The notes under the pieces were generated by a model, which saw nothing but the letters and a program-made list of their open reading frames with translations, was not told the origin of the DNA and did not search any database. 55,767 bases of DNA, from IMG/VR virus record IMGVR_UViG_3300031973_001744, positions 1 through 55,767 of that record; one strand, written 5' to 3'. The DNA is from a virus. The translations under genes and the position numbers were made by a program. This document shows positions 14,759 through 44,582 of this stretch, piece after piece; position 1 is the first letter of the stretch, and every line of letters starts with the position of its first letter.

Positions 14759-14790
14759 TAAAAATACGAAAAAATATAATTTATTCCAAC
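14759..14790 (-). promoter_or_regulatory. Promoter of the Bacteroidota-like family (GTTGG-N19-TATTTTTA)
   Basis: Minus strand: GTTGG at 14786-14790, 19 bases ending TTTTTTCG, then TATTTTTA at 14759-14766, 13 bases before the ATG at 14746. Spacing is identical to the eleven other members found here. Confidence 0.75.
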
Positions 14791-15089
14791 TATTTTTTCT
14801 TTTTCTTTTTATACCCTTTATGCCAGTGTTCAGTCATTGTAATAATTTTTAACTCACTAACTGGAATATCTTCTACTTTTTTTCCATTTTCAAATAAAAC
14901 ATCATAATGTGTTACAACATGTTTATTTCCTTCCTTAACTAAGGTATGTTTTTCAGGAATAGTATTTCCTTTTCCATATTTACTATGAACTACTTTTGCA
15001 GCACAATCATGTTTGAATCCAGGAGCTGCTTCTTTAAGCATAGATTTTATCTCCTCTCTAATTATTTTTTTAATTATATTAATTTTCAT
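14790..15089 (-). CDS. Small protein with capsid-targeting-like leader and Tudor/CarD-like core
   Basis: 100 codons from the ATG at 15089; an upstream in-frame GTG at 15104 lies within the late-type motif and is less likely. The leader, MKINIIKKIIREEIKSMLKE followed by AAPG, is an amphipathic basic helix ending L-K-E before A, the T4 prohead-protease consensus. The rest begins GFKHDCAAKVVHSKYGKGNT; the VxHxxYGxGxT pattern and following strands resemble the small barrel of CarD/UvrD-type nucleic-acid-binding modules. It ends in a lysine run. A head-packaged, DNA-associated protein is inferred. Confidence 0.65.
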   Translation of the reverse strand: MKINIIKKIIREEIKSMLKEAAPGFKHDCAAKVVHSKYGKGNTIPEKHTLVKEGNKHVVTHYDVLFENGKKVEDIPVSELKIITMTEHWHKGYKKKKKK

Positions 15090-15102
15090 ATTAATAAATA
15101 TC
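15090..15102 (-). promoter_or_regulatory. Candidate late-promoter motif
   Basis: Minus-strand GATATTTATTAAT directly precedes the ATG at 15089. The closeness would make the transcript nearly leaderless, which weakens a simple promoter reading or points to an unusual leader. Confidence 0.3.
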
Positions 15103-15409
15103 ACTTACGATGTCTATTAAGAGATTGAGTATGAACATAACCAGGCTCCCATCTTATATCACATCTACCATCCGGTTCAACCTCTAGATTCGTATTATAC
15201 ATAAATAGCGGACCATTATACTCCTGAAATTGAGTAGTATCATATTCGTACATATTTGTAGATTCTTTTATTCTTCTAGGACCATCCCAAGATCGAAACA
15301 TTCTACAAGTAGTTCTGTACCATCTTCCTTCTTTATTTTGAACTTCAGTTAACCAACATTCATTAAAGTCATAAATTAACTTTCCAGTATCTCCTCTTTT
15401 TTCACTCAT
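15101..15409 (-). CDS. Hypothetical protein
   Basis: 102 residues, not recognised, rich in Trp, Tyr and Arg with several Cys (no clear zinc pattern). The start overlaps the stop of the 60-residue gene by one base (translational coupling), and the end lies beside the late motif of the next gene. It is the second gene of the early-type unit driven from 15614-15645. Confidence 0.55.
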   Translation of the reverse strand: MSEKRGDTGKLIYDFNECWLTEVQNKEGRWYRTTCRMFRSWDGPRRIKESTNMYEYDTTQFQEYNGPLFMYNTNLEVEPDGRCDIRWEPGYVHTQSLNRHRK

Positions 15410-15680: not shown

Positions 15681-16130
15681 ATGGACCTAAACCGTTTTTT
15701 TAAATTTTTTAAAGAAGATAATAATACTGATGGTGAATTATTAAATGAGGATAATATAGAATTGTATCAAGAAGAAACACCAGTTTTTAAAATTGGTATG
15801 TTTATTAGATTATCTGAATTTAAAATAATACACTCATTAAAAAATATTAATAATGTAGATAATCAATCGGATGTATTATTTATGTTACCAGGCATTGATA
15901 TTGATGGTAACAATAAACAAGAATTTGATTTAGTTTTTAATATGTTAAGATATAGACATATTAAGGATCTAGATCTTGATAATGAGATGGTAGTTGATAG
16001 TATAAAACTATGGTCAGAAAAGAATTTAGAAGCTTATATTTTAGATTGTTTAGATTACTATGAATCAGTAGAAGAGTATGAAAAGTGTGGTTTTTTAAAA
16101 AAAATCCAAGATATTATACAAAATAGTTGA
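15681..16130 (+). CDS. Hypothetical acidic protein, first gene of the rightward arm
   Basis: 149 residues, acidic, with alternating helices and no transmembrane segment or recognisable motif. It is expressed from the divergent early-type promoter at 15645-15676, with the ATG almost at the expected transcript start. The gene ends just before another promoter of the same family. The position beside the control region suggests an early regulator or host-takeover protein; the sequence gives no proof. Confidence 0.55.
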   Translation: MDLNRFFKFFKEDNNTDGELLNEDNIELYQEETPVFKIGMFIRLSEFKIIHSLKNINNVDNQSDVLFMLPGIDIDGNNKQEFDLVFNMLRYRHIKDLDLDNEMVVDSIKLWSEKNLEAYILDCLDYYESVEEYEKCGFLKKIQDIIQNS

Positions 16131-22987: not shown

Positions 22988-23329
22988 ATGAAAAGTACAA
23001 CATTTAAAAAAATAATTAAAGAGTGTGTAAGAGAAGTATTTAGGGATGAATTGAAAGATATTCTTTTGGAATCTTTAAAAAACAATAACTCTAACCCTAC
23101 TATAACTGAATCAGTAACTATACCTCAACCTACTTTAACATCAAAACCTAATCCTAAATCTTTAATAAATAAAAGACAAGCATATATGGATGTTATAGGT
23201 GAGACAGCAATGTCTTTTAATTCAAATGATGTACAAAAATTTAATCCTCAAGGAGTTGATCCTATTAGCGGTAATATGCCTGAAGGTGAGGTTTCTTTAG
23301 ATCAAATCACTAACTTAATTAGTAAGTAA
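22988..23329 (+). CDS. Small protein with capsid-targeting-like leader, in the baseplate operon
   Basis: 113 residues. The N-terminus (MKSTTFKKIIKECVREVFRD, then ELKDILLES) is a basic amphipathic helix ending L-L-E before S, similar in design to leaders found at 14790 and 26882-29756. The C-terminal part (YMDVIGETAMSFNSNDVQKF) is not recognised. The stop overlaps the gp25-like start by one base. The mismatch between baseplate neighbours and a head-type leader is notable; the leader could also be a simple assembly helix. Confidence 0.6.
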   Translation: MKSTTFKKIIKECVREVFRDELKDILLESLKNNNSNPTITESVTIPQPTLTSKPNPKSLINKRQAYMDVIGETAMSFNSNDVQKFNPQGVDPISGNMPEGEVSLDQITNLISK

Positions 23330-23733
23330 TGGCATACGGTGGAAAAAATATTAATTTTAATGATTTAAATAAAAATTCTTACATTGGATTTGGTTTTCCT
23401 TTTAATGTACCAGGAGTGTTTAGACAGACTGATATGTCAAAAGACTCTATTAAAGCAAACCTACTTAATTTTTTCCTTACTAATCCAGGTGAAAGATATA
23501 TGAATACAGATTTTGGTGGTGGACTAAGACAGTTTATATTTGAACAACTCCAAAATAATACTGTAGATAGTGTTAAAGGTTATATTATTAGTAAGCTGGG
23601 ACAATTTTTTCCCAACATAAAAGTGCGTAAGTTAGAAGCTATTCCTGACTTTAATCGAAATCAAATTACAATAAAATTTTCTTATTTTATATCTAATACT
23701 GGTGAAAGTGATAGAGTTTTTATAACATTATAA
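23329..23733 (+). CDS. Baseplate wedge protein, gp25-like
   Basis: 134 residues. GERYMNTDFGGGLRQFIFE (54-72) is the signature of the gp25/GPW family, which forms the inner ring of contractile-tail baseplates and starts sheath assembly. The small alpha/beta fold, the length (T4 gp25 has 132 residues) and the gp6-like gene right after it agree. The start overlaps the preceding gene by one base and the next gene follows after one base. Confidence 0.92.
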   Translation: MAYGGKNINFNDLNKNSYIGFGFPFNVPGVFRQTDMSKDSIKANLLNFFLTNPGERYMNTDFGGGLRQFIFEQLQNNTVDSVKGYIISKLGQFFPNIKVRKLEAIPDFNRNQITIKFSYFISNTGESDRVFITL

Positions 23734-23734
23734 T

Positions 23735-25621
23735 ATGCCAACATATAATTCAAATAATAATAGTAGTAAAATCATTAGATACCTAAATAAAGATTTTGGT
23801 AGCTTTTTAAATGATCTAACTACATTTTCTCGAACGTATTTTCCTAATACATTTACTGATTTTAGTCCAGCCTCTCCAGCTAGAATATTTATGGAGATGT
23901 CTGCCTATGTTGGTGATGTTTTAGCTTTTTATCTTGATAATCAAATACAAGAAAACTTTTTATTATTAGCAAGACAATCCGATAACATATATCAAGCTGC
24001 ATATATGTATGGTTATAAACCTAAATTAAGCAACGCAGCTAGCGGTGATTTAAATATATTTCAACAAATACCAGCTATTTTTGATGGTACACAATATGTT
24101 CCAGATTATAGCTATACAATTAAAGTTCCTCAATATACTAGCGTTAGAACAGGAGCAGGAAACGAAGCATATAGATTTTATACTTTAAATGATTTAGATT
24201 TTTCAGTTTCATCATCAATAGATCCAACTGAACTAACAGTATACGAGATAGACGGATCAGGTAATCCAATATTTTTCTTATTAAAGAAAACAACAAAAAT
24301 TACCTCAGGTAATATAGTTACTAGAACACTTCAATTTAATGAATATGAAGAATTTCCAAGTAGAGATATATCTGCTCCTACATTTCTTAATATGATAGAT
24401 GTTATTGATTCGGATGGTAATGTTTATTATGAAGTTGATTATTTAGGACAGGAAACTATTTTTAGAAAAGAACCAAATAAAAATTATTTAGATCCTAATA
24501 AAACACAAAATATAGATGATGCACCATATGTATTATCAGCTATAAAAAGTGAAAGAAGATATATTTTAAGAGTGATTGATAGTAATACTATTAGATTACA
24601 ATTTGGTTCAGGAAGATATAGCTCTGGAGATGATGAAGACATAATTCCTAATCAAAATAATGTAGGTTTAGGATTACCATATGAGCAAAATAGATTAACT
24701 ACTGCATATTCTCCGCAAAATTTTATATTTACTAACAGTTACGGTATTGCACCATCTAATACAACTATACAAATAAGAATGTTTGCTGGTGGAGGTATAC
24801 AGACTAATTCACCTGCAAATTCTATAAATATTATTGATGCAACATTAGTTAGATTTAATAATGTACCTCCTGTTTCAACTACAGCTAATTATGTTATTAA
24901 TAGTTTATCATGCAATAATCCAGATGCATTAACAGGTGGAAGAGGAGGTGATACACTTGCAGAAATTAAAGAAAATAGTTTATCAAGTTACGGTTCACAA
25001 CTACGAACAGTTACATTAGATGATTATATTATACGAGCTTTATCTTTACCATCAATATATGGACGAATCGGTAAAGTATATGCGCAAAAACCTCAACTAT
25101 CTGATCAACAAACATCTACGATTGAAACTGTTAATCTATATGTTTTAGGAGAAAATGCGGAAGGAAGACTTACTTATTTAACTAATACAGTTAAAGAAAA
25201 TATCAGAACCTATCTAAATGAATATAAAATGGTAGGTGATACAGTCGAGATACGAGATGCATATATTATTAATATTGGAGTAGATTTCGAAATTATTACT
25301 CAACCAAATTATAATGCTAATATTGTATTAAGTCAATGTATTATTAGAATTAATGAATATTTTGATTTAGATAAATGGAATATTAATCAACCTATAGAAA
25401 TACGTAATTTATATAATTTATTAGATAGAGTAGAAGGAGTTCAAACAGTTAATAATATAGAAATAACTAATAAAGTTGGAGAGGATTTAGGATATAGTCA
25501 ATATAGCTATGATATACATGGTGCTACTATTAATAGAGTAGTATATCCAGCATTAGATCCGTGTATTTTTGAAGTAAGATTCCCTAGAAATGATATTAGA
25601 GGAAAGGTAGTAAGTTTTTAA
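23735..25621 (+). CDS. Baseplate wedge protein, gp6/J-like
   Basis: 628 residues, close to T4 gp6 (660). The N-terminus (YLNKDFGSFLNDLTTFSRTY, then FTDFSPASPARIFMEMSAYV and GDVLAFYLDNQIQENFLLLA) is the conserved gp6 start, and the C-terminal half contains the J-like part (GGRGGDTLAEIKENSLSSYG, later EIRDAYIINIGVDFEI). gp6 dimers link the six wedges of the baseplate. The gene ends head to head with the minus-strand gene at 25622, with no spacer. Confidence 0.92.
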   Translation: MPTYNSNNNSSKIIRYLNKDFGSFLNDLTTFSRTYFPNTFTDFSPASPARIFMEMSAYVGDVLAFYLDNQIQENFLLLARQSDNIYQAAYMYGYKPKLSNAASGDLNIFQQIPAIFDGTQYVPDYSYTIKVPQYTSVRTGAGNEAYRFYTLNDLDFSVSSSIDPTELTVYEIDGSGNPIFFLLKKTTKITSGNIVTRTLQFNEYEEFPSRDISAPTFLNMIDVIDSDGNVYYEVDYLGQETIFRKEPNKNYLDPNKTQNIDDAPYVLSAIKSERRYILRVIDSNTIRLQFGSGRYSSGDDEDIIPNQNNVGLGLPYEQNRLTTAYSPQNFIFTNSYGIAPSNTTIQIRMFAGGGIQTNSPANSINIIDATLVRFNNVPPVSTTANYVINSLSCNNPDALTGGRGGDTLAEIKENSLSSYGSQLRTVTLDDYIIRALSLPSIYGRIGKVYAQKPQLSDQQTSTIETVNLYVLGENAEGRLTYLTNTVKENIRTYLNEYKMVGDTVEIRDAYIINIGVDFEIITQPNYNANIVLSQCIIRINEYFDLDKWNINQPIEIRNLYNLLDRVEGVQTVNNIEITNKVGEDLGYSQYSYDIHGATINRVVYPALDPCIFEVRFPRNDIRGKVVSF

Positions 25622-26620: not shown

Positions 26621-26854
26621 TTAATATTCAAATTTAGCTCCTTTACCTTTATATTCATATCCTCCATCAGGATATTCAGCAGCTATTTTTTCATCTGCTT
26701 CTTCTCTATCTTTTGCTTTAATGACCATTCTAGTCATTCCGAATTCATTTTTTGGAATAGTATAATGGAATAATCTTTTACCTTCTTTTATAGAATCCTC
26801 CTCAGATAAAAGTGGGTTATTTTTTAAATATTTTTTATAGTTAAAATTATCCAT
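26621..26854 (-). CDS. Small protein with NYKKYL..NNPLL leader (head-targeted candidate)
   Basis: 77 residues. The N-terminus MDNFNYKKYLKNNPLLSEED matches that of the 217-residue protein at 27912 (FNYKKYVSNNPLLAEAD) and ends L-S-E, a prohead-protease-like site. The remaining 55 residues (KRLFHYTIPKNEFGMTRMVI, then a helix with KAKDREEADEKIAAEYPDG) could be a small strand-helix fold. A candidate late motif precedes it. Confidence 0.6.
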   Translation of the reverse strand: MDNFNYKKYLKNNPLLSEEDSIKEGKRLFHYTIPKNEFGMTRMVIKAKDREEADEKIAAEYPDGGYEYKGKGAKFEY

Positions 26855-26863
26855 AATCTTATT

Positions 26864-26874
26864 ATTATAAATAT
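26864..26874 (-). promoter_or_regulatory. Candidate late-promoter motif
   Basis: Minus-strand ATATTTATAAT, 9 bases before the ATG at 26854, with the same downstream AATAAGATTATG leader as before 22988. Confidence 0.4.
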
Positions 26875-26881
26875 ATTTTTT

Positions 26882-27397
26882 TTATTTTAAAAATGCTACC
26901 ATTAATTTACCATCATAGGTAACATCACTAACAGGTAATTGCTTTTTAATATATGCTGAATAAAGGTTAGCCCGTCTATCATCACCAAAATCAGATTTAG
27001 CAGGAAATACTAACATTTTTTTAATACCTTTTTCCTTATAATCAATATCATTTAGGAATTCTTTGGTAGCTTTTACAATAGTAGCCATAATTCTAAATAA
27101 TCTACCCTTATTTACAACACGATCAGCTCTATCTTCGTATCCATATTCATCTACTGTAGTAAAGTCAACTTTAAAATATGGTCCTCTTCCTTCTGCATTT
27201 GAATGATTTCCATAATACGCAGCAAAGCTTACTATATAATCATCTCCATCTTCTGTTGTGAAGGTAACATCTCTACCTGCCACATTTTTAGAGCTGCCTC
27301 TGAAGACATTATCATTTACACTATAAGAATACGGATTAGCAGATCCTTCTCCAACTTCAGATATAATTTCTTTTAATATGTTGGTAAGTTTAATCAT
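26882..27397 (-). CDS. Head-targeted candidate, tandem paralogue copy 2
   Basis: 171 residues. The N-terminus MIKLTNILKEIISEVGEGSA has I-S-E before V as a possible prohead-protease site. The body (YSYSVNDNVFRGSS, TFTTEDGDDYIVSFAAYYGN, VVNKGRLFRIMATIVKATKE, DDRRANLYSAYIKKQLPVSD) matches the upstream 171-residue gene along its whole length. The two genes overlap by 4 bases, so this is a tandem duplication kept in frame. Fold and function are unknown; the KGRLFRIMATIV helix and DRRANLY segment are the most conserved parts. Confidence 0.6.
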   Translation of the reverse strand: MIKLTNILKEIISEVGEGSANPYSYSVNDNVFRGSSKNVAGRDVTFTTEDGDDYIVSFAAYYGNHSNAEGRGPYFKVDFTTVDEYGYEDRADRVVNKGRLFRIMATIVKATKEFLNDIDYKEKGIKKMLVFPAKSDFGDDRRANLYSAYIKKQLPVSDVTYDGKLMVAFLK

Positions 27398-27909
27398 TTT
27401 AATATTGCTATAATTTCATCACCATCATAATTGATTCTTTTAATAGGTAAATGCTTCTTTATATATGCCATATAAAGATTAGCACGTCTATCATCATAAT
27501 AGCCTTCTGTTTTCGTTGGTGATATTATTAATTGATCAATATAATTTTCCTTATAATCGACTAGATCCATGAATTCTTTAGCTATCTGTACAATAGTAGC
27601 CATTACTCTGAATAATCGTCCTTTATTTACAACAGTCTCTGCATCATTAAATCCTGAAAGTTCATCTGTAAGATAAAAGTCTATTGTAAAGTGATTACCT
27701 ACCTCTTTTGCCCAATAATTATCACCCCAATATGCATTTAACTGTACTTCATATCTATCACCATCCTCTGTTGTAAAGGAAGCAGTATCATATGCTGCAT
27801 TACCCTGCTGACCTCTTTGTATACCATGTCTAGAAGTATAGCTGTAAGGTTTAGCTGTACCTTCTCCAACTTCAGAGATAATTTCTTTTATAAGAGGAAA
27901 TAGTTTCAT
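27394..27909 (-). CDS. Head-targeted candidate, tandem paralogue copy 1
   Basis: 171 residues, same length as its tandem partner. The leader MKLFPLIKEIISEVGEGTAK ends I-S-E before V. Conserved body segments are TTEDGDRYEVQLNAYWGDN, VVNKGRLFRVMATIVQIAKE and DDRRANLYMAYIKKHLPIKR. Divergence is spread evenly, which indicates an old duplication under continued selection. Two residues of gap separate it from the upstream leader-bearing gene. An internal head protein is the inferred role. Confidence 0.6.
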   Translation of the reverse strand: MKLFPLIKEIISEVGEGTAKPYSYTSRHGIQRGQQGNAAYDTASFTTEDGDRYEVQLNAYWGDNYWAKEVGNHFTIDFYLTDELSGFNDAETVVNKGRLFRVMATIVQIAKEFMDLVDYKENYIDQLIISPTKTEGYYDDRRANLYMAYIKKHLPIKRINYDGDEIIAILK

Positions 27910-27911
27910 GA

Positions 27912-28565
27912 TTAATCAACGTCAACACCGCGCTCAAGACCATCAATAATATTTTCTAAAGTAACATCATATCTATTAGATGATGTTCCAAAATCAAGAG
28001 CACCATATGCTTCCGCACGAGAATGAGCAGTTGGAAAATAACTACTTAGTAATTCATTGGCTTCTCTAGACATATATTTTAGATCCTCAAGAATATCTCT
28101 AAGTTTATCTAAGGCTTCAGTTCTATCTTCAACCTCATTTACTTTTTTCTTCCCTTTTTTATCAGTATCATAAATATGGTCTGGGGCCATACCTAATTTA
28201 ATAGCCGCTGATCTTACACCGGGTCTTACTTCTTTTCTTTCTTCCTCATCTAAAGCTCCTTCTTCAAAAACAACAGCTCCTCCAAGATCATAAGTATAAA
28301 CAGCGTAACCGGTGTTCGGATCCTCAACAGCAATCGCTTCAGTATCAGGATCGATATCCTTAGTTACCTTTTCAACATCATATTTTTTAAGATCTCCAAG
28401 AGTACCGGTAGTAATTACAGTAAACTCCTTATCATCAAATCTAGTTGCAATATCTCCAGCAGCTACATTTCCAATTGGAGTAACTTTTCTAGGTGTAGTA
28501 TCCGCCTCAGCTAATAAAGGGTTATTACTTACATATTTTTTATAGTTAAAATTCGTGTCGCTCAT
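27912..28565 (-). CDS. Head-targeted candidate with NYKKYV..NNPLL leader
   Basis: 217 residues. The N-terminus (FNYKKYVSNNPLLAEAD) ends L-A-E before A, an excellent match to the T4 prohead-protease consensus (L/I-x-E then a small residue). It is followed by an acidic body, with further L-x-E sites (ALDEEERKE) and a helical C-terminus (LDKLRDILEDLKYMSREANE). The shared leader with the 77-residue gene argues that the leader is a mobile, reusable module. Enzymatic motifs were not seen. Confidence 0.6.
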   Translation of the reverse strand: MSDTNFNYKKYVSNNPLLAEADTTPRKVTPIGNVAAGDIATRFDDKEFTVITTGTLGDLKKYDVEKVTKDIDPDTEAIAVEDPNTGYAVYTYDLGGAVVFEEGALDEEERKEVRPGVRSAAIKLGMAPDHIYDTDKKGKKKVNEVEDRTEALDKLRDILEDLKYMSREANELLSSYFPTAHSRAEAYGALDFGTSSNRYDVTLENIIDGLERGVDVD

Positions 28566-28598
28566 AATTTTTTTAATTCGTTAGTTATATATATTCCT

Positions 28599-29756
28599 TT
28601 ACCCTAATTTACTAATTATCTCGTAAATATTTCCTTTATGGGCATCTTGCAAAGCTATAATAGCTCTTTTGATAGCCTCTTTCTTACCTATCTCTTCTTT
28701 GTCGGCGATTTTATGAATGAGTTTCATTAAATCATCTTGAACCCTTTTTAATCGACCGGCGCTGAATTCTTCTGTCACTGGGTTAGAGTGGTTGTTGGTT
28801 AAAGATTCGGTTTTACCTTCATCTAGTGCACCTTCTCTTTTTTCAAGTTCATCTTCTAATGTACTCATTAATTTATACATTCCACCGGTACCATGAATTT
28901 TATCGGCTAACATTTGTTGTTTATCGGTTCCGTAATATAGAAAATCATTAACAAGAGTAGCGGCATCTTTTAATGTTTTATGCATTCTTTTAATCTCTTG
29001 AGGAGATTTTTGATCTAAAAGACCTTCATCAATAGTTTCTTCTTTAATTACCGGATTACCTTTAATTGCTTGTCTAAATATAGTAATAAAGTTATGAATT
29101 CTCTGACTAATCTCTGATGCTCCTTTACTTAACTGTTCACTACCATCATATCTAATGTCTCTAAGAGTATCAAACATTTCTACAAATTGTTTTTCAAAGT
29201 TTACTAATTCTTCTCTACCTATATCTTGTAGTAAATATTTCATGGTATCCTCATCTGCGGTACCCATTGACTCTAATGCTTCTTTGATATCCATCTTTTT
29301 AATCATATCGATAGCTAAATCTTTGGCTCCTTCTGGGTATAAATGATCGTTTTGATCTTTAAGCTTCTGAACTAAATCTTTAATTGCTTGTTTAATATCT
29401 GCTGTTGACTCTTTAGCTTCTTCAATATCCTCTTTATTAAGTCTTTCTCTTACTTTTTGAGCAATCTTTTCTGCAATAGGTGAAGCTGCACTTGCTTTAG
29501 TTAAATCATCGGCATGCTTTTTAGTAGTCTCTAATTCCTTATTAAGATCTTGTGCTCTCTTAATATCATCTGCATCCGCTTCTGTTTGTAGCTTATCTCT
29601 AAGTTCTTTAGTTTTTTCTAACTCTTGATTCATTTTTTTCTGATTTTCAATATCTTCATCTGAAGCTTCTGGTACAATTAGTTCATGCATCTCTTTGTCT
29701 AATTTCTCTTTCATTTTGCTATAAACTTCTTTCATGATGATTTTTTTGTAGTTCAT
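28599..29756 (-). CDS. Coiled-coil internal head/core protein candidate
   Basis: 385 residues, highly charged and almost all helical with long coiled coils (NQELEKTKELRDKLQTEADA and similar). It begins MNYKKIIMKEVYSKMKEKLD, and further in are several sites of the prohead-protease type: TIDE before G, ALDE before G. T4 core proteins such as gp22 and the internal proteins are also helical, charged and cut many times by gp21. A scaffold or core role in the prohead is the best inference. It opens the leader-bearing block; a candidate late motif lies at 29777-29789. Confidence 0.6.
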   Translation of the reverse strand: MNYKKIIMKEVYSKMKEKLDKEMHELIVPEASDEDIENQKKMNQELEKTKELRDKLQTEADADDIKRAQDLNKELETTKKHADDLTKASAASPIAEKIAQKVRERLNKEDIEEAKESTADIKQAIKDLVQKLKDQNDHLYPEGAKDLAIDMIKKMDIKEALESMGTADEDTMKYLLQDIGREELVNFEKQFVEMFDTLRDIRYDGSEQLSKGASEISQRIHNFITIFRQAIKGNPVIKEETIDEGLLDQKSPQEIKRMHKTLKDAATLVNDFLYYGTDKQQMLADKIHGTGGMYKLMSTLEDELEKREGALDEGKTESLTNNHSNPVTEEFSAGRLKRVQDDLMKLIHKIADKEEIGKKEAIKRAIIALQDAHKGNIYEIISKLG

Positions 29757-35250: not shown

Positions 35251-35988
35251 TTATGCTTCAGTAGTTACAGAATCAGGATGTATCCAAGTAACAGATCCAC
35301 CAGCACCTAAATCAAAGTATAGTCGACGAGTTTTACTTCCTCGGCGATTCTTACTAAAGAACATCAATCGCTGATCTTCAGATTCGAATATCATATGACA
35401 CATTCCAGTTAGCATATGCTTAAAGCGATTACTACCAGCAAAGTTTCCAGTCTTAGTAACCTGCTGTATTATCATAAACGTCGTATGAGTATTAGTATCG
35501 TTGTTAGCTAAGTTATGCTTCTCATAAAGATTTAAGATCATAGTCTCAGCTTGCTTATTAGTACAACGATGGTAATCACTAACAACAGTTACGATCTCAG
35601 CCATACTATCGATAAGTACAGTATCGAATCCTTTCTTAAAAGTACTCTCTAATACTTGCAGAGGATCGCTATCTAAATGATCACCCATAAATAAGATCGG
35701 AAGATTACCGAACTTCGGGAAACGCTTAACGTAACCATACATATCGATAGCATTCATCTCTCCAGAAACAAATAATACATTACTACCATTCTTCTGAAGG
35801 TCAGCTAAGATATCTAACAATACAGTAGACTTACCAACACCAGGATCTCCAACAAAAGCGAAGTTACATCCTTTCATTAATCCTCCAGTACCACTTAATA
35901 AATTATCAACGACTTTACCAGTCTCCATAGGGATAAATAAACTCTCATCGAAGTTTATATCCTTCATTTTTACAATCTTGCTATTCAT
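35251..35988 (-). CDS. RecA-superfamily ATPase, RadA/KaiC-like
   Basis: 245 residues. Walker A is GDPGVGKST (47-55), Walker B is TVLIDS (123-128), and a later QVTKTGNFAGSNRFKHMLTG segment matches the RadA motif (xVTKxGxxAGxxxLxHM). RadA/Sms helps branch migration and recombination; here the zinc finger and the Lon-like C-terminus of bacterial RadA are absent, so only the ATPase core is kept. A T4 UvsX equivalent is possible, but the KTGNFAG motif favours RadA. It has its own strong early-type promoter. Confidence 0.75.
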   Translation of the reverse strand: MNSKIVKMKDINFDESLFIPMETGKVVDNLLSGTGGLMKGCNFAFVGDPGVGKSTVLLDILADLQKNGSNVLFVSGEMNAIDMYGYVKRFPKFGNLPILFMGDHLDSDPLQVLESTFKKGFDTVLIDSMAEIVTVVSDYHRCTNKQAETMILNLYEKHNLANNDTNTHTTFMIIQQVTKTGNFAGSNRFKHMLTGMCHMIFESEDQRLMFFSKNRRGSKTRRLYFDLGAGGSVTWIHPDSVTTEA

Positions 35989-36017
35989 AACCTTTATTTT
36001 AACTTTTTAACTATACT

Positions 36018-36049
36018 TAAAGATAAGAAATTATCTTCAGACTTCCTAC
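36018..36049 (-). promoter_or_regulatory. Promoter of the family (GTAGG-N19-TATCTTTA)
   Basis: GTAGG at 36045-36049, 19 bases (AAGTCTGAAGATAATTTCT), TATCTTTA at 36018-36025, 29 bases before the ATG at 35988. The AAGTCTGA block is shared with 37039-37070 and 40004-40035. Confidence 0.85.
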
Positions 36050-36055
36050 TACTAA

Positions 36056-36223
36056 TTAAAGTATTTCAGGATTAGCATCCTGAGTAATAAGAAGAGCAAA
36101 CCATACAAGGAATACTACCATAGCAATTCCTACTAACTTTGCATTATCAGATATCTCATCATAAGATTCTTGACCAGTAATAAATCGAAATGCACTAATG
36201 ATTGTATTAATAATTGAACTCAT
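36056..36223 (-). CDS. Small membrane protein (55 aa)
   Basis: Product starts MSSIINTIISAFRFITGQES and has one transmembrane helix (LVGIAMVVFLVWFALLI), ending DANPEIL. It stands alone behind its own family promoter at 36253-36284, with the shared leader ATAAATAATAGGTTATG. That independent promoter makes it a more credible gene than its length suggests. Function unknown. Confidence 0.65.
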   Translation of the reverse strand: MSSIINTIISAFRFITGQESYDEISDNAKLVGIAMVVFLVWFALLITQDANPEIL

Positions 36224-36252
36224 AACCTATTATTTATCTTTTTAACTATACT

Positions 36253-36284
36253 TAAATATAAGAATTATATTTCAATTCTCCTAC
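36253..36284 (-). promoter_or_regulatory. Promoter of the family (GTAGG-N19-TATATTTA)
   Basis: GTAGG at 36280-36284, 19 bases ending AATTCT, TATATTTA at 36253-36260, 29 bases before the ATG at 36223. Confidence 0.85.
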
Positions 36285-36305
36285 TAAACATAAAATTATT
36301 TTATG

Positions 36306-36611
36306 CTATAGTTTTAAAATAAGATGATTGATATCATCTCGACTAAGCCAGCCACGTACTCCATTGTCATGATCATCATCAAAGAACTTATCAGTTATAT
36401 AAGCACCATCTTGATCCACGACAGCAATCTCGAATGCGCTGTAATCATCAGCAGTTTGAAAAAAGGGATCAACATCACTATTAGAAGTACTGTAGAATCC
36501 TTTTCCGGCAATAACACTCAGAGTTAAACCATTTATGTTTATTGTACCAAGGATTCCAGTTCCTACTGGATGAGGACCAAATTTAATATCGTTAAAAGTT
36601 TTCTTTTGCAT
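36306..36611 (-). CDS. Hypothetical protein (start moved to 36611)
   Basis: 101 residues from the ATG at 36611, which follows AAAGGT and lies 7 bases after the upstream stop; a longer frame would overlap that gene. The sequence is beta-rich with acidic loops (SNSDVDPFFQTADDYSAFEI, FFDDDHDNGVRGWLS). Such a DDDHDNG turn could bind metal, but no family is recognised. Confidence 0.55.
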   Translation of the reverse strand: MQKKTFNDIKFGPHPVGTGILGTININGLTLSVIAGKGFYSTSNSDVDPFFQTADDYSAFEIAVVDQDGAYITDKFFDDDHDNGVRGWLSRDDINHLILKL

Positions 36612-36618
36612 ACCTTTA

Positions 36619-37008
36619 TTATTTAACTGTTTCAAGTTCGTTTTTACCATAAGCTAAGTCAGCCCATGTCTTAGCTCCATTTAACTTATACTGATCTTGA
36701 TTGTATAGTTCAGTATTCTGATATAATTCATTAATAGTTCCAACAGTAAGAACATTTAATAATTGTTTATCAATGAAGATCTTCTTACCTTTACGTTGAA
36801 AGATAGGCATCCAAGCTCCTTTACCTTCAGGATTAAACTCAACTGTCTGAACAACTCCTTTTTTACCCATAGATAGAGTCAACTCTAAATGCGTATTGAA
36901 AGTAGCATTCATAGTTGGTGAAGCGTGACTAATACTGAATCCATTTCTTCCTTTAAGAACAAATCTAAATTCACCTTCTCTACCTTTCATAAAATCTACA
37001 ACTGTCAT
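36619..37008 (-). CDS. Hypothetical early protein
   Basis: 129 residues, not recognised. Mixed strands and turns in the first half (GEFRFVLKGRNGFSISHASP), helical near the end. It is the first gene of the two-gene unit behind the promoter at 37039-37070. Confidence 0.55.
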   Translation of the reverse strand: MTVVDFMKGREGEFRFVLKGRNGFSISHASPTMNATFNTHLELTLSMGKKGVVQTVEFNPEGKGAWMPIFQRKGKKIFIDKQLLNVLTVGTINELYQNTELYNQDQYKLNGAKTWADLAYGKNELETVK

Positions 37009-37038
37009 AACCTATTATTTTATCTTTTTAACTATACT

Positions 37039-37070
37039 TAAATATACGAAATATCTTTCAGACTTTCTAC
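37039..37070 (-). promoter_or_regulatory. Promoter of the family (GTAGA-N19-TATATTTA)
   Basis: GTAGA at 37066-37070, 19 bases (AAGTCTGAAAGATATTTCG), TATATTTA at 37039-37046, 31 bases before the ATG at 37008. The -33 box lies inside the end of the upstream gene. Confidence 0.8.
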
Positions 37071-37555
37071 TTTTCGTCGATATATTTTTTTAGTTCAACG
37101 AACATTCTTCTATCGATTAATCTTTCAGTAAAGTCTTCATTAATTATCCTTAGGCTTCTCTTTTTAGCCTTTTCAATATCATGAGAGAAAATAATATCGA
37201 AGTACTTATCTATCTTTCCTTTAACAAGCTTATAAGCATTAGGATCTACTCTAGTATTAGCAGCCGGAATATAATCTCTCTTAATTAATTTTACATCAGT
37301 AAACTCCTTACTACCCTTACCTCCTTTATAGAGCATACTACCAAACCCTCTTCTACCTCTTCCAGTAATACGATCTAACTCCTTCTTAGTCTCTTTATTC
37401 TTAATAATCTCAACCTCCGAATAAGTATTCTTTCCAGAGATAATAGTCTGCACAGCTACCTTTTCTTCAGTAGAGCAGTTAACACATACTTTAGTTCCAG
37501 GAACAGCTTTCAATCTAGCTTCCGGAATAATAACACCACAGCATATACAATTCAT
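37067..37555 (-). CDS. DksA/TraR-type C4 zinc-finger protein
   Basis: 162 residues. C3-x2-C6 and C24-x2-C27 with the CGxxIxxxRLKAxPGTxxCxxC layout of DksA/TraR zinc fingers, which reach into the RNA polymerase secondary channel. The remaining 130 residues are basic (DRITGRGRRGFGSMLYKGGK) and end in a helical part, unlike TraR or DksA. A 59-residue paralogue with the same finger lies at 42501. A modulator of host transcription is the likely role, with the basic tail of unknown use. Confidence 0.7.
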   Translation of the reverse strand: MNCICCGVIIPEARLKAVPGTKVCVNCSTEEKVAVQTIISGKNTYSEVEIIKNKETKKELDRITGRGRRGFGSMLYKGGKGSKEFTDVKLIKRDYIPAANTRVDPNAYKLVKGKIDKYFDIIFSHDIEKAKKRSLRIINEDFTERLIDRRMFVELKKYIDEK

Positions 37556-37571
37556 AACCTTTTACTTTACC

Positions 37572-37603
37572 TTAATATACGAAAAATATTTCTATTCTCC
37601 TAC
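37572..37603 (-). promoter_or_regulatory. Promoter of the family (GTAGG-N19-TATATTAA)
   Basis: GTAGG at 37599-37603, 19 bases ending TTTTTCG, TATATTAA at 37572-37579, 16 bases before the ATG at 37555. The -33 box overlaps the stop of the upstream gene. Confidence 0.8.
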
Positions 37604-37785
37604 TTAGGTACAGCCAAGATGGAATACTTCCAGCCGGAATCAGTATTGGAGTTTAGTACGCTAATAAATTCCATAGCCTTATCTTCTTCTTCTATAACTA
37701 AAATTTCTCCATAACCATCGTTCATAAGAACATTTAATCTTTGACCTGAACTAGTCTGCATTTCTTTTATAATTCTATAACTCAT
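37600..37785 (-). CDS. Small hypothetical protein after the GMP reductase gene
   Basis: 61 residues with a strand-strand-helix pattern (GQRLNVLMNDGYGEILVIEE). It overlaps the GMP reductase gene by 4 bases and so is translated together with it. Not recognised. Confidence 0.55.
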   Translation of the reverse strand: MSYRIIKEMQTSSGQRLNVLMNDGYGEILVIEEEDKAMEFISVLNSNTDSGWKYSILAVPK

Positions 37786-38783
37786 AATAAATGTGGCTTT
37801 CCCTCAGTTAATCCTGCGTTAGTAACTCTAACATATTCTGGATAGAATTGATCTAAGCTATTAGCTCCAGCATAAGAACAAGCTGATCTAATTCCATCTA
37901 TCAATCCAGATAAAATAAATTTAACTCCACCTTTAAAAGGTATGGTAGTTGACTCTCCTTCTACATTTCTCTCTGCTTGACCATGAGCAGTTTTAGTTTC
38001 TAGAGAAGCGGAGCCGCGATATCGTTTATACAACGATCCATTCTTCTCAATAATCTTACCAGGAGCTTCTTGCGTACCAGCTAATAAAGATCCTAACATC
38101 ACACAATCTGCTCCTACTGCTAGAGCCTTTGCTATATCACCAGAAGTTCTAATCCCACCATCAGCCATAATAGGTACTTCAGCAATACGAGAGATCTCTT
38201 CTAAACACGTCACATTAGGTACTCCAAAGCCAGTCTGTACTCGAGTAGTACAAAGAGACCCTCCACCAATACCAACTCTTAATCCATCTACTCCTGCTGC
38301 TTGAAGATCAGCTGCTGCTTGAGCTGTAGCAATATTTCCGGCAATGATATCAACATGTTCGGGTAAATTTTTCTTACACCATTTAACCATATCGATAACA
38401 TTCTTATGGTGACCATGAGCAACATCAATAACTAAAATATCAGCTGCAGCTTCAACTAAAGCAACTGCACGCTCTTTATCTCTTTCACTTACTCCAATAG
38501 CTCCCATTCCTAAGCTTACTGGATACATTTGATTAAACATACCCATAATTGAAGCTTGTTCTTCAATAGAATTAAATCTATGCAAGCATCCAACTCCTCC
38601 TATCTTAGCCATTGCCATCATCATATCATATCCACAAACAGTATCCATACAAGATGCTACTAAAGGGATAGGCATAGAATAATTTCTACTAACTTGACAA
38701 GTTAAATCAACATCAGTTCTAGATCGTATTACTGAGTAGTTAGGAACTAATTGAATATCATCGTATGTTAATGCTACTTTCAT
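37782..38783 (-). CDS. GMP reductase / IMP dehydrogenase family enzyme, GuaC-like
   Basis: 333 residues. The catalytic loop GIGGGSLCTTRVQTGFGVP has C178; PIMADGGIRTSGDIAKALAV and ADCVMLGSLLAGTQEAPG are the phosphate-binding segments, and VPFKGxV-like IPFKGGVKF and IDGIRSACSYAGA end the domain. There are no CBS domains and the length matches GMP reductase (about 345) rather than IMP dehydrogenase (about 490); TTRVQTG also favours GuaC. The enzyme would turn GMP into IMP with NADPH, feeding adenine nucleotides in an AT-rich phage. A CBS-less IMP dehydrogenase is the alternative. Confidence 0.85.
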   Translation of the reverse strand: MKVALTYDDIQLVPNYSVIRSRTDVDLTCQVSRNYSMPIPLVASCMDTVCGYDMMMAMAKIGGVGCLHRFNSIEEQASIMGMFNQMYPVSLGMGAIGVSERDKERAVALVEAAADILVIDVAHGHHKNVIDMVKWCKKNLPEHVDIIAGNIATAQAAADLQAAGVDGLRVGIGGGSLCTTRVQTGFGVPNVTCLEEISRIAEVPIMADGGIRTSGDIAKALAVGADCVMLGSLLAGTQEAPGKIIEKNGSLYKRYRGSASLETKTAHGQAERNVEGESTTIPFKGGVKFILSGLIDGIRSACSYAGANSLDQFYPEYVRVTNAGLTEGKPHLL

Positions 38784-38785
38784 AT

Positions 38786-39232
38786 CTACTTTATCATAAA
38801 ATTTAATTCCGGCAAGTCGCCACCATTGAGCTCTTTATATTTTTTAATACAAGCTTCTTCTAATTCACGTTGTAAAGATCCTTCTAATTCAAACTCTCCT
38901 ATCTTATAATCAACTTTAGGAGTTTCAACTAAATAAAAAGTTATTTGATTGTACTTATCTTTGATAGCCTCTCTAATTCGATTATTAGTTCGATTAGTAA
39001 TACTTACATACTGTACTCCTAATCTGTGTGCTAAAGATCTACTCTCTCCAAACTTTAAAATCTCTCCATCTGGACTTACAAACATATAAACTCCAGGTTT
39101 CTTCCAATCCTTTTTATTAAGAGTAAAGGTGGTAGCAACTCCTTGCTTATATTTTTCTGATGTATTGATATAACCAGCTTTCTTGAAGCCAACCATGTCA
39201 CAAAAATATCTTACTAATGATGTATCTACCAT
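38786..39232 (-). CDS. GIY-YIG-like protein (divergent)
   Basis: 148 residues. KPGVYMFVSPDGEILKFGES resembles the GIY-x10-YIG pair (GVY and KFGES), followed by RLGVQYVSITNRTNNRIREA with the Arg on the next helix, and a C-terminal E in EEACIKKYKEL. This order fits GIY-YIG nucleases, but the second motif is not canonical. It lies 2 bases from the GMP reductase gene. Confidence 0.5.
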   Translation of the reverse strand: MVDTSLVRYFCDMVGFKKAGYINTSEKYKQGVATTFTLNKKDWKKPGVYMFVSPDGEILKFGESRSLAHRLGVQYVSITNRTNNRIREAIKDKYNQITFYLVETPKVDYKIGEFELEGSLQRELEEACIKKYKELNGGDLPELNFMIK

Positions 39233-39516
39233 TTCTTAATAATGTTTTCTAGCTCCATAGAACCTTGTAAATAAAATACAAAAGTATCAGAATCAAATTC
39301 AAATCGTACACCAGAGATATTCTCATCAGGAACATACTTTAAAAATGGAGAAAGATCTTGAGGTAAGGATACTTCAATCCATAAAGCCATCTGCTCTTTA
39401 GTGCATTGAATATCTAATGATTCATATGATGGAATAAAATGAATTCCATTCTTTCTTGGTACTGGAGTAAATTCCATATTACCTTCTGGGGTTGAGATGT
39501 TAATATAATTTTTCAT
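39226..39516 (-). CDS. Hypothetical protein
   Basis: 96 residues, mostly beta strands (INISTPEGNMEFTPVPRKNG, VRFEFDSDTFVFYLQG). It overlaps the next gene by 7 bases. No family recognised and no membrane segment. Confidence 0.5.
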   Translation of the reverse strand: MKNYINISTPEGNMEFTPVPRKNGIHFIPSYESLDIQCTKEQMALWIEVSLPQDLSPFLKYVPDENISGVRFEFDSDTFVFYLQGSMELENIIKKW

Positions 39517-39520
39517 AACT

Positions 39521-39751
39521 CTAATTTAAATAAACATAATAAAAGGATATAACAGCACTAGCAATAATTATAGGCCAGCTTAGTATATCATATAATATAA
39601 ATTCTAACGTTGGTCCGGCTGCTGGAAATATCATTCCAATAAAAAGAGTAAAAACAGAAATCGGAAAACCAATTATACAAAATATGATAAAAAAGAAAAA
39701 TATAAACGCTAGTATATTACCGAGAAACTTATCTTCATCAAACTGATTCAT
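39521..39751 (-). CDS. Small membrane protein, two helices
   Basis: 76 residues: helices at about 14-36 (AFIFFFFIIFCIIGFPISVF) and 48-75 (LEFILYDILSWPIIIASAVI). A short acidic N-terminus (NQFDEDKF) precedes. It overlaps the upstream gene by 4 bases. Phage-encoded membrane protein of unknown role. Confidence 0.6.
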   Translation of the reverse strand: MNQFDEDKFLGNILAFIFFFFIIFCIIGFPISVFTLFIGMIFPAAGPTLEFILYDILSWPIIIASAVISFYYVYLN

Positions 39752-39981
39752 ATTGCAAAAAATTTAATATTTTCCTTACGAGTACGACCATGCTCAGTCT
39801 TTACATAATTTTCACAATGATCATCATAGACTGATTGTAAACGACTTAGAGTCCAAAACTTAATCTCAGTCCTATTACGATCTGCAAAATTCTCTCCATA
39901 GCCCCAATTCTCTACAAAGGCTTTGATTGCTTCCTCTCGATTATCAAATCGTTGAGGCATAACTGTAGTGTATTTTTTCAT
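39748..39981 (-). CDS. Small hypothetical protein, first gene of the GMP reductase operon
   Basis: 77 residues, soluble: RFDNREEAIKAFVENWGYGE is a helix and the C-terminus is basic (YVKTEHGRTRKENIKFFAI). It is first behind the family promoter at 40004-40035, so the six genes down to 37600 probably form one early-type transcript. Confidence 0.55.
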   Translation of the reverse strand: MKKYTTVMPQRFDNREEAIKAFVENWGYGENFADRNRTEIKFWTLSRLQSVYDDHCENYVKTEHGRTRKENIKFFAI

Positions 39982-40003
39982 AACTTATTTATTTAACTTA
40001 TAT

Positions 40004-40035
40004 TAAAGATACGAAAAATATCTCAGACTTTCTAC
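40004..40035 (-). promoter_or_regulatory. Promoter of the family (GTAGA-N19-TATCTTTA)
   Basis: GTAGA at 40031-40035, 19 bases (AAGTCTGAGATATTTTTCG), TATCTTTA at 40004-40011, 22 bases before the ATG at 39981. It is the last member of the family to the right; the glycan cluster has none. Confidence 0.85.
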
Positions 40036-40361
40036 TATCTTTGTAACTTTTCTAGCTCGGCTTTTAACTTTTTTAGCTCTTTAATCTGATCGCTAGTATG
40101 AAGATTTCTCATAGTCATTCCTACTTTACACATCATAGAGATTACAATAGATAAACCAACACCAATTGCAAACTCTTTTAAGTTATCAGCATATCTATGC
40201 GCTATAAATGTATAAATTCCGGAAGCAACTAAATTAAAGAACATCGCTCCACCTATAAAGATAAACACAGCCTTAGGATCATATCTAAACGACATGAATG
40301 TTAAAGTAATATTAACAGGTAAAAGAATAAAACATAAACCAAGTCCTATAAATAAGTCCAT
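40035..40361 (-). CDS. Membrane protein with three to four helices (start moved to 40361)
   Basis: 108 residues from the ATG at 40361, which overlaps the upstream stop (TAATG); the longer frame from 40412 would overlap that gene by 52 bases. Hydrophobic helices include LFIGLGLCFILLPVNITLTF, VFIFIGGAMFFNLVASGIYT and FAIGVGLSIVISMMCKVGM. The C-terminal 30 residues form a Lys/Leu coiled coil (LKKLKAELEKLQR). Confidence 0.6.
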   Translation of the reverse strand: MDLFIGLGLCFILLPVNITLTFMSFRYDPKAVFIFIGGAMFFNLVASGIYTFIAHRYADNLKEFAIGVGLSIVISMMCKVGMTMRNLHTSDQIKELKKLKAELEKLQR

Positions 40362-40708
40362 TACTTCCACAAAATTTGAATTAAAAGAATAATTAAAGCT
40401 AATGATAAGCAAACTGCATGTTTAGCAGTTAAAGATTGTCCTCCTATCTTCCAGGTTAAAAAAGAAAATACAAATATTCCAATAGCAAAGCCTATCAAGC
40501 GTATCGGCCACAATTGAAAATTAAATGCTATCCCTACGTATTTTGTAGAATAGATATAAAGTATTGAGATAGGAATTCCCAATAAGGACATATAAAATAT
40601 GTTCTTACTAACCCATTCATTATAAAATTGATAATTGGTTTGATACCAAGTTCCTACTTGAGCAAAAATAAAAATTAATACTCCTAATAATAAATAACCT
40701 ATTTTCAT
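40361..40708 (-). CDS. Membrane protein with about four helices
   Basis: 115 residues. Helices at about 3-20 (IGYLLLGVLIFIFAQVG), 35-53, 62-84 (LWPIRLIGFAIGIFVFSFLT) and 95-113 (HAVCLSLALIILLIQILW). It is coupled to both neighbours by overlaps (TAATG to the next gene). The pair of multi-helix proteins in tandem suggests one membrane complex; no transporter motif is visible. Confidence 0.6.
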   Translation of the reverse strand: MKIGYLLLGVLIFIFAQVGTWYQTNYQFYNEWVSKNIFYMSLLGIPISILYIYSTKYVGIAFNFQLWPIRLIGFAIGIFVFSFLTWKIGGQSLTAKHAVCLSLALIILLIQILWK

Positions 40709-43125: not shown

Positions 43126-43893
43126 TTAAATAGTTTTAAGATTATTATTAGGATTATGCTGAATAAAACTTCCCCACTTATATTTAGCGTAATGATGACC
43201 TCTTTGTTCTGATTGTTGTCTTGATAACTCTTTTTCCTTATCGTTAACCGTCAAAGAAACAAAATGATAAAAAGATAGATTATAATCTCGAATTAATTTA
43301 TAACCTGCAAGGTTGCATTTCAAAAAGAAGTCCCAATCCGCCACCATACCCAATTCATACTTATCATCCCAACCACCAATAGTCAAAAAATCTAATCTAT
43401 TCATATAAATTGGTAATGTTGATCCCGAATCGTCAACCAACGATTTGGCAACCTCTTGTTCGTATTCCCAGTATCTTTCCAGATCAAATGTCTTCGGATC
43501 TCGACCTAAGTCCTGGATTACAAACTGCTTGAACATCGATGGTTGAGGTTCGATCTGATTTGGAGCACAAACTCTACCCTTCATCTCTCCTAACTCCTCT
43601 AATCTTGTATCCCATTTATCTGGAAACACATTATCATCATTTACTATTAGAATGTTATCATTTGACGCATTATAAACCCCTAGATTGGTCGCCGTACTAA
43701 GGCCTTGGTTCTGTTCTAGGTCAAGTATTGAGATATGATCTTCATATTTATCCAATATATATTTATTAAGATTGTAGTATCCATCGGTAATCGCGATCAA
43801 CTCATTTTCTTTTTCTTGACCTTCTATTGCTGATCTTAAACATAAATCTAACGCCTCGGGACTTTTGTAAGTTGGAATAATAACGCTTATCAT
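43126..43893 (-). CDS. Glycosyltransferase family 2 (start moved to 43893)
   Basis: 255 residues from the ATG at 43893, whose ATGA overlaps the previous stop and which follows AAGAGG; a TTG four codons up is less likely. ISVIIPTYKSPEALDLCLRS is the GT-A nucleotide-binding start, ITDG the first acidic motif, and VNDDNVFPDKWDTRL the DxD region that holds the metal and sugar nucleotide. NQGLSTATNLG lies between, as usual in family 2. It adds a sugar to a lipid-linked or surface glycan. Last gene of the glycan cluster. Confidence 0.85.
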   Translation of the reverse strand: MISVIIPTYKSPEALDLCLRSAIEGQEKENELIAITDGYYNLNKYILDKYEDHISILDLEQNQGLSTATNLGVYNASNDNILIVNDDNVFPDKWDTRLEELGEMKGRVCAPNQIEPQPSMFKQFVIQDLGRDPKTFDLERYWEYEQEVAKSLVDDSGSTLPIYMNRLDFLTIGGWDDKYELGMVADWDFFLKCNLAGYKLIRDYNLSFYHFVSLTVNDKEKELSRQQSEQRGHHYAKYKWGSFIQHNPNNNLKTI

Positions 43894-44582
43894 ACCTCTT
43901 CCCAATTAACTATTGGTGAAAGCATTCCTCCTTCAACGTGAGTAGAGTACCCCGGCATACAAGATATTAAATTAGATCCTTGATTCCATAAATCCGTAAA
44001 CTTATCGTGATCCTTAGTCCATTTATCAACTAAGTCACAATATTTTACATGTGTATCAAAATGCTTTTTTAAAGTACCAAATTTACACGCATAAGTATTA
44101 GTAGTTGATGGAACGGTTCTCCAATGTACCGACGGAGTAGCTATAATTTTTGATTGTAAAGATTCATACATCGGTAGGAAATATTTATCCGGATGATCAT
44201 ATAAAGTATAATAATCAGCTCCTATATATTCAAACCCTTCAACTAAAATATCAATCCAACCTTCTCTATGTAAATAATCATCTTCTAAAAAATAAATAAT
44301 ATCATCATCTTTATAATCTTGTTCTATAACATAATTCAAAAGATTTAAAAATGATTGAGCATCATTACCTCCTTTCTTACTTATTTTATTTACTTGTTTA
44401 TTTTTTAAAAAATGCTCTTCTATCGAACCATTACCACTATCATGAAAAGCAGTATATTCTACTCTAGCGTCTAATGTATTAATTAAACTATCAAATATTT
44501 TTTCTCTATCAAACCAATCAGGTCTTGGTTTATTATGTGAATTAGAAGAAAAGTTACAATGTCTTTGAAATATTCTTATCAT
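43890..44582 (-). CDS. Glycosyltransferase-like (GT-A) protein
   Basis: 230 residues. IYFLEDDYLHREGWIDILVE has the EDD (DxD-like) motif and following helix of GT-A enzymes, and SVHWRTVPSTTNTYACKFGT later could be the acceptor side. The usual N-terminal VSVIIP strand is replaced by MIRIFQRHCNFSSNSHNKPR, so this is a different clade from the family 2 neighbours. The glycan context supports a sugar transferase; a non-transferase relative is possible. Confidence 0.6.
   Translation of the reverse strand: MIRIFQRHCNFSSNSHNKPRPDWFDREKIFDSLINTLDARVEYTAFHDSGNGSIEEHFLKNKQVNKISKKGGNDAQSFLNLLNYVIEQDYKDDDIIYFLEDDYLHREGWIDILVEGFEYIGADYYTLYDHPDKYFLPMYESLQSKIIATPSVHWRTVPSTTNTYACKFGTLKKHFDTHVKYCDLVDKWTKDHDKFTDLWNQGSNLISCMPGYSTHVEGGMLSPIVNWEEV

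Follow-up and report, generated by a model that had tools for sequence, protein, structure and literature searches.

Leader proteins of the window and the head genes of the virus

The stretch of DNA studied here, referred to as the window, is a complete IMG/VR record of 55,767 bases (IMGVR_UViG_3300031973_001744) from an AT-rich (29% GC), T4-like phage, and is probably a fragment of the phage genome. Our subject is a set of its proteins that begin with short leaders ending in L/I-x-E, the form of the capsid-targeting sequence (CTS) of T4 internal proteins. A preliminary description had listed seven such leaders, and all seven read as it stated in the translated open reading frames (ORFs). On the minus strand, a 77-residue protein (26621-26854) begins with MDNFNYKKYLKNNPLLSE-E (26801-26854), and the genes at 26882-27397 and 27394-27909 begin with MIKLTNILKEIISE-V (27356-27397) and MKLFPLIKEIISE-V (27871-27909), respectively. 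These two belong to one body family, as they are paralogues over their whole length (51% identity). The 217-residue protein at 27912-28565, also on the minus strand, starts with MSDTNFNYKKYVSNNPLLAE-A (28506-28565), and a small minus-strand protein at 14790-15104 carries MKINIIKKIIREEIKSMLKE-A (leader at 15030-15089), where Met 6 of the ORF (Met at 15089) is the likelier start. The plus-strand gene at 22988-23329 has a leader ending in KDILLE-S (22988-23071). The minus-strand gene at 1-1589, with a GTG start at 1587-1589, opens with MNSLSQFLVE-S (1560-1589) and runs off the window; it encodes the first 529 residues of a 1,614-residue multi-domain protein, complete at 35627-40471 of an overlapping contig, G006 (IMGVR_UViG_3300031972_003003, 60,295 bases), which in reversed orientation is 99.87% identical to window positions 1-37215. 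The claim that two FNYKKY..NNPLL leaders sit on unrelated bodies also held: the leaders are identical at 13 of 18 positions and the bodies have no convincing relation, with only short BLAST matches (best 20 residues, E 0.009, two-sequence comparison).

The tagged set is larger than the preliminary description saw, and includes chains of enzymes. An additional candidate at 15681-16130 (plus strand) has a MDLNRFFKFFKE leader with its glutamate at residue 12, a register also seen in the 22988 protein, and a 385-residue charged protein at 28599-29756 (minus strand) has a weaker candidate leader ending in HELIVPE-A (29667-29756). The bare [LI]xE motif was rejected as evidence for a leader, being too common: it falls within the first 32 residues of 29 of the 80 window ORFs and is only mildly enriched there (34 seen against 21.9 expected, p=0.01). 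The stricter form [FLIM][LIVM]xE[ASGVED], with E at residues 11-30, was found 12 times against 2.17 expected from protein interiors, a 5.5-fold excess (Poisson p=3e-6).

No S77 prohead protease was found in the 55,767-base window. G006 extends beyond the left end of the window into the head operon, and there encodes both an S77 protease (52326-52916; PF03420, E 4.5e-32, above the curated cut-off; match to the solved prohead core protein protease 5jbl, E 1.4e-14) and a Gp23-family capsid protein (54177-55889). Neighbouring genes may encode terminase, portal and scaffold, judging by their sequences and positions; the portal family PF07230 had no match in the window, in a search that produced no match anywhere. 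The preliminary description had proposed comparing the leaders with the protease and capsid protein of the virus itself, and both indeed carry hydrophobic-x-E sites like those of T4. In seven of seven capsid proteins, V-x-E follows ENQAKQ[LI], at the place where T4 gp23 is cut; a variable stretch comes directly behind it, and then the conserved fold. An 82-residue protein encoded near the protease gene (G006 51293-51541) shares GSSAFTANAGTGAQ with the stretch of the capsid protein that lies behind V-V-E (GGSAFTSNAGTGAN), and is a possible capsid mimic. The N-terminal propeptide of the protease has [LI]xE at one and the same place, with a variable P2 residue, in 16 of 17 distinct relatives, the sole exception being the second of two S77 proteases (31291, 233494) on a 268-kb leader-bearing contig, which has no propeptide L-x-E. 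T4 gp21 is described as bearing an N-terminal site of this kind and as cleaving after L/I-x-E (PMC9026906).

Leader classes, their register and their bodies

IMG/VR was scanned with two DNA patterns, for F[DN]LKK[FY]LxENKLT (class A1) and F[DN][YF]KK[YF]..NNPL (class A2); class A counts refer to the 137 loci of both scans, the A1 loci being the 80 listed of at least 120 stretches. In 158 of the 159 matches listed, a start codon precedes the motif by 2-5 residues (ATG in 154; GTG or TTG in four, at a distance of 3-4 residues), and the remaining match (L225) has no nearby start codon and sits within a longer chain. The A1 leader is carried by 103 mutually dissimilar bodies (<40% ungapped identity to each other, among matches listed), which supports the view of the preliminary description that the leader is a reusable tag. 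Across these 103 sequences, positions outside the search pattern are still conserved (N15 83%, S16 91%, K/R17 87%) and are followed in turn by a hydrophobic residue, a position with L in 57%, a variable residue and E21 (64%); from residue 23 on, conservation is near background, save for some Glu at 24. In 95 of the 103, the glutamate of an [LIVMA]xE falls between residues 20 and 24, compared with 10% in protein interiors. The A2 class, judged from 10 dissimilar sequences, has a variable residue 14 and Glu at residue 15 in 80% of them. Since class A conservation stops at L-x-E with a free P2 residue, the leader ends at the site expected for T4 gp21; together with the S77 (gp21-type) protease and gp23-type capsid protein encoded by the same virus, this supports the proposal of a prohead-protease site.

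A third class, MKKSxLRxIIKE-A (class B), occurs in nine contigs and is clearly N-terminal in seven, 1-3 residues after ATG; in L276 the motif lies five residues past the nearest ATG within a longer ORF, and L278 has no in-frame ATG. Among named phages, the A1 leader was found only in four records of Flavobacterium phage immuto, at four places in each. Another variant within a single genome, MDNF[DN]L[KR]KYLAEG, begins six proteins of contig G002.

Leaders and S77 proteases tend to share a genome. Among the contigs listed, G006 aside, S77 was detected in 9 of 11 leader contigs of at least 45 kb (5/5 of those of at least 100 kb), one of the nine (G016) being, by its protease, a near-identical relative of the window virus. 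The figure for random contigs of at least 45 kb, taken from 80 listed matches to an arbitrary 14-base pattern, was 2 of 12 (1/5 of those of at least 100 kb; Fisher p 0.003). Smaller leader contigs had S77 in 3 of 12 cases.

The spacing of the leaders can also be compared with that of T4, where residues 4 and 7 of IPIII control targeting and residues 8 and 10 control processing (PMC9026906). T4 IPII begins MKTYQEFIAE, a sequence that matches annotated T4 ipII at 100%. In 11 genomes with an S77 protease, not all of them independent, 44 of 1,650 proteins had hydrophobic residues at 4, 7 and 8 with Glu10, where 3.5 would be expected; 43 had this spacing shifted to end at Glu12, and seven other registers gave 1-16. 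In the window, only the 1-1589 and 26882 proteins have the exact register, the other leaders being longer or shifted. Five genomes without detectable S77 showed no peaks at E10 or E12; the Glu10 register was present in 7 of 977 proteins (2.6 expected), or in 2 of 729 when contig G034 is set aside. A looser motif was enriched 3.43-fold in the S77-positive and 1.33-fold in the S77-negative set. As a test, the contrast between the two sets is only partly clean, because G034 has five of the seven Glu10 starts in the S77-negative set.

These counts bear on the idea that the amphipathic helices serve membrane binding, oligomerisation or expression, with [LI]xE arising from helix composition. The frequency of the bare motif in the window and the leader-like starts of one S77-negative control genome agree with such an origin, which nevertheless leaves unexplained the E10 and E12 peaks that are lacking from the S77-negative set, as well as the variability of P2 and the fall in conservation behind the glutamate; nor does it account for the linker sites of fused copies or the link to virion proteomes described below. 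We consider it very improbable.

The bodies behind the leaders are diverse. A scan of 74 class A representatives drawn from 97 of the 137 loci gave hits at E<=0.001 to two Pfam families and five PHROGs, each through a single representative; additional Pfam hits, up to E 0.1, were weak. PHROG and Pfam scans of the window bodies were uninformative, save that 14790 matches parts of the longer phage families phrog_22379, phrog_11470 and phrog_764 and that one relative of the 26882/27394 body matches PF22028 (DUF6934); the 27912 body had no family match above cut-off in these scans. The 26882/27394 body has eight related loci (two being other copies of this virus), and in all eight an [IL]xE ends a leader. 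In L284 and L286, three and four genes of this type stand in tandem, one in L284 being fused to a kinase-like domain. The AlphaFold2 model of the 27394 protein is confident for the body and of low confidence at residues 1-6 and 13-17, leader helix included. At E<=0.001, Foldseek matched 16 viral models and nothing in the PDB; several of the models are parts of larger proteins, 500-1,300 residues long, in which they form a domain. A tblastn search with the protein against named phages gave no match. Many GNAT-type acetyltransferases resemble the model at VIA Z 7-8.3, a level rated common, with GNATs frequent among the rows, which hints weakly at a GNAT-like fold.

Could the common leader reflect shared ancestry of fast-diverging proteins, and not the re-use of a tag? 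Some sets are true paralogues (26882/27394 and the tandem copies in L284 and L286), and most class A bodies match no family, so that ancestry is possible for each pair. The same 10-residue register, however, precedes clearly different families (kinase, deoxyribonucleotidase, cytidylyltransferase-like, superoxide dismutase (SOD) and 27394-type), and the same modules are found with a leader, without a leader or inside chains. Common descent as the general explanation has, in our estimate, a marginally smaller chance than helix composition.

Virion enzymes, enzyme chains and the proposed mechanism

The preliminary description had further proposed that the leaders load proteins into the head. This gained support from two T4-like cyanophages whose enzymes, found by others in purified virions, carry T4-like leaders. 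For S-CREM2, virion proteins were taken from Table 3 of PMC10665884 and ORFs from the first 150,000 bases of the genome; ORF calling did not pick up two of the virion proteins. The pattern [FL]xx[FL][LIMFV]xE occurred in the first 40 residues of 7 of 25 non-structural or unknown virion proteins compared with 4 of 150 undetected ORFs, with a p value of 1.2e-4 that is optimistic because the pattern was chosen after these N-termini had been seen; a widened form of the earlier motif gave 6/25 against 13/150 (p 0.03). One of 16 structural virion proteins matched, as did all four annotated enzymes outside the structural and lytic groups: a SAM hydrolase, an APH/ChoK-like kinase, a cytidylyltransferase and a Cas9-like nuclease. 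The last, gp12 (L480 7704-10313), which is reported in virions, has RFASFMAE-A near its start, and its annotated start may, from the sequence, lie too far upstream. In S-SCSM1, the NMNAT annotated as a virion protein starts MKSFLQFLKE-A. Of the cytidyltransferases from five additional cyanophages, four begin with MK[KR]F[SL][AQ]FL[TS]E-A and one has RTILE-G. S77 is present in S-CREM2, S-SCSM1, S-CAM9 and S-SSM5 (4/4).

The 1,614-residue chain of G006, which begins with the 1-1589 leader, contains an Fe/Mn SOD at residues 617-813 (Pfam E 1e-28; solved SODs E 1e-47), a zeta-toxin/kinase domain at 1198-1336 (Zeta_toxin match) and a match to 5'-3' deoxyribonucleotidase at 1451-1613. The domain directly behind the leader is putatively cytidylyltransferase-like, based on a GGGFKPPHKGHF motif and BLAST matches to related chains, and the putative 'peptidase' and 'zincin' modules are so named from HE..H-like motifs. 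In relatives, the kinase, the nucleotidase and other modules are each encoded by a gene apart, which carries a leader as well. A stand-alone SOD gene (L169:3140-3787) starts MIKMSDILLE-A. In contig G001, a 27394-type body lies inside a chain (BLAST E 4e-14, two-sequence comparison), preceded by RINE-VGEA.

For nine modules, we counted [LI]xE in the span from 18 residues ahead of the module start to 3 residues past it, leaving out copies that aligned only from query residue 21 on, started before residue 6 or had an identical boundary. The motif was present in 51 of the 53 copies that stand alone and in 31 of the 40 that are fused, compared with 727 of 4,450 random places (16%); the binomial p for the fused set is 2e-17, a value that ignores the relatedness of copies. 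By module, the fused copies with the motif were CyT 8/8, GTGKK 8/8, nucleotidase 5/6, peptidase 4/11, LWAN 2/2, kinase 2/2, zincin 1/2 and SOD 1/1. Class A leaders themselves occur within longer ORFs in eight contigs (L153, L156, L161, L163, L225 and L227, and partially L187 and L210), and in seven of the eight an L-x-E closely precedes the inner leader, by up to ~20 residues. The inner leader of L225, which has no start codon of its own, stands directly behind L-Q-E-G. In immuto, the leader gene and a gene like the upstream one are separate and adjacent.

Taken together, the leaders are most probably, at a probability of about 0.87 in our estimate, capsid-targeting sequences of the T4 kind, within a greatly expanded system of T4-type CTS and prohead protease. 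For this virus we infer virion content, cleavage and injection. During head assembly, the short amphipathic N-terminal leader would dock its protein in the scaffold core; cleavage after [L/I]-x-E by the S77 protease that the virus itself encodes, of the T4 gp21 type, would free the body inside the head; and the freed body would leave the head with the DNA at infection, one tag being joined to many unrelated bodies. The prohead protease probably also dices polyproteins into separate enzymes, because [L/I]-x-E sites are mostly kept between fused modules. We lean slightly towards a scheme in which each chain is loaded whole by one leader and diced in the head at the inter-module [L/I]-x-E sites, such that ready takeover or protective enzymes, SOD included, would be delivered at infection. 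The chain set in this scheme would comprise nucleotidyltransferase-like, peptidase-like, Fe/Mn superoxide dismutase, zeta-like kinase, deoxyribonucleotidase and GNAT-like domains, and a cut site common to tag and linker would let modules pass from tagged genes of their own into chains and back.

The tagged proteins could instead be assembly factors or minor components of the capsid, brought by their leaders to the scaffold or the capsid; the bodies would then stay in or leave the head and would not be injected effectors. The 22988 gene fits such a role in its position, as it and its positional counterpart in immuto (at 81525) adjoin baseplate wedge genes, and the protease and capsid protein have similar sites themselves. 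In the window the wedge genes lie at 23329-25621 (PHROG matches) and are named gp25 and gp6, tentatively, by our own reading beyond those matches; the larger wedge protein is 40-43% identical to its counterparts in immuto and Microcystis phage Mel-JY01. Against assembly factors speak the several bodies that are enzymes or enzyme modules (SOD, deoxyribonucleotidase, kinase, nucleotidyltransferase-like) for which no part in assembly is evident, and the high diversity of the bodies seen in the Pfam scan. We regard this alternative as unlikely, though clearly less so than the composition and ancestry explanations.

Several observations weigh against capsid targeting by the leaders. In S-CREM2, 18 of the 25 non-structural or unknown virion proteins lack such a leader, and in gp129, one of the seven matches, the motif lies no nearer the start than residues 34-40. 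In the 38 kb of S-SCSM1 that were read, no plain leader was seen on four neighbouring virion proteins or on a virion-flagged RegA, and Pectobacterium phage CBB has S77, yet its cytidyltransferase is without a leader. Virion proteomics of immuto were not found in the literature among the matches listed. The leader contigs G017 (75 kb) and G021 (46 kb), possibly fragments, show no S77. In G034, a contig of 348 kb whose first 200 kb were read for ORFs, neither S77 nor Gp23 was detected, and five proteins start with a T4-like leader (ORFs 5062, 21966, 80745, 87977 and 189021); this contig may carry a diverged head protease. Among the 11 register genomes, G011 and G013 have identical leaders and G003 and G004 similar ones. 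Nine of the 40 fused boundaries lack [LI]xE, seven of them belonging to the peptidase module and mostly having V/M-x-E.

Elsewhere in the window, a long minus-strand block at 43126-55762 holds, judging by the sequence, putative glycosyltransferase and sugar-modification genes.

Significance and comparison with known systems

The leader offers a sequence handle on head-carried phage proteins, which are otherwise hard to recognise. The internal proteins of T4 are described as injected anti-restriction factors (PMC12373910), and the tagged bodies of these aquatic phages are therefore candidate counter-defence or takeover proteins. Enzymes have been reported in cyanophage virions before, and the authors of those reports allowed that purification might not have cleared them fully from the virions (PMC10665884, PMC9602691); the leader provides a concrete reason for the recurrence of enzymes in such virions, one that is checkable in existing mass-spectrometry data. 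In the open-access literature searched, none of the matches listed was found to describe these leader classes, a leader on enzymes in cyanophage virions or inter-module prohead-protease sites, the letters of the class A leader (four strings) were absent, and 'capsid targeting sequence' appeared together with 'cyanophage' only in a T4 review. The principle is known from T4; the leader families and the chained enzymes seem undescribed.

T-even internal proteins are described as diverse bodies behind a conserved CTS, and the three of T4 as blocking restriction enzymes (PMC3012670, PMC12373910, PMC9026906). The present system resembles the T4 CTS (of IPI, IPII, IPIII and Alt, cut by gp21) in its 10-residue N-terminal leader, its use of residues 4, 7, 8 and 10 and its L/I-x-E site (PMC9026906, PMC3012670), and likewise in a conserved leader on divergent bodies and a gp21-family protease in the same genome. 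Unlike T4, it belongs to a distant aquatic lineage, has many bodies without known relatives and has sites between chain modules as well. It also has longer leader classes with a second site, FDLKKFLxENKLTxNSKLLxE and FNYKKY..NNPLLxE (in the latter the first Glu is Asn), and the additional class MKKSxLRxIIKE-A.

With the virion enzymes of S-CREM2 and S-SCSM1 it has in common a nucleotidyltransferase and other enzymes in virions and leaders such as MKNFSSFLTE-A and MKSFLQFLKE-A; those enzymes were published as virion-associated, with no targeting signal mentioned in the parts of the reports available to us, and their bodies differ from the present ones. The giant phages phiKZ, SPN3US and 201phi2-1, likened here by published description, are similar in having a gp21-like prohead protease and many head-protein propeptides cut after glutamate (PMC9026906). 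The polyvalent proteins of phages and conjugative elements, which combine peptidase, GNAT and other effector domains and are predicted to be packaged and injected (PMC5512222; also in print in PMC9503650), find a parallel in the SOD, Zeta_toxin and deoxyribonucleotidase matches within the one 1,614-residue polypeptide of G006. The system described here differs from polyvalent proteins, as portrayed in the available parts of PMC5512222, by its T4-type leader, by prohead-protease-type sites at most module boundaries and by modules that also occur as separate tagged genes.

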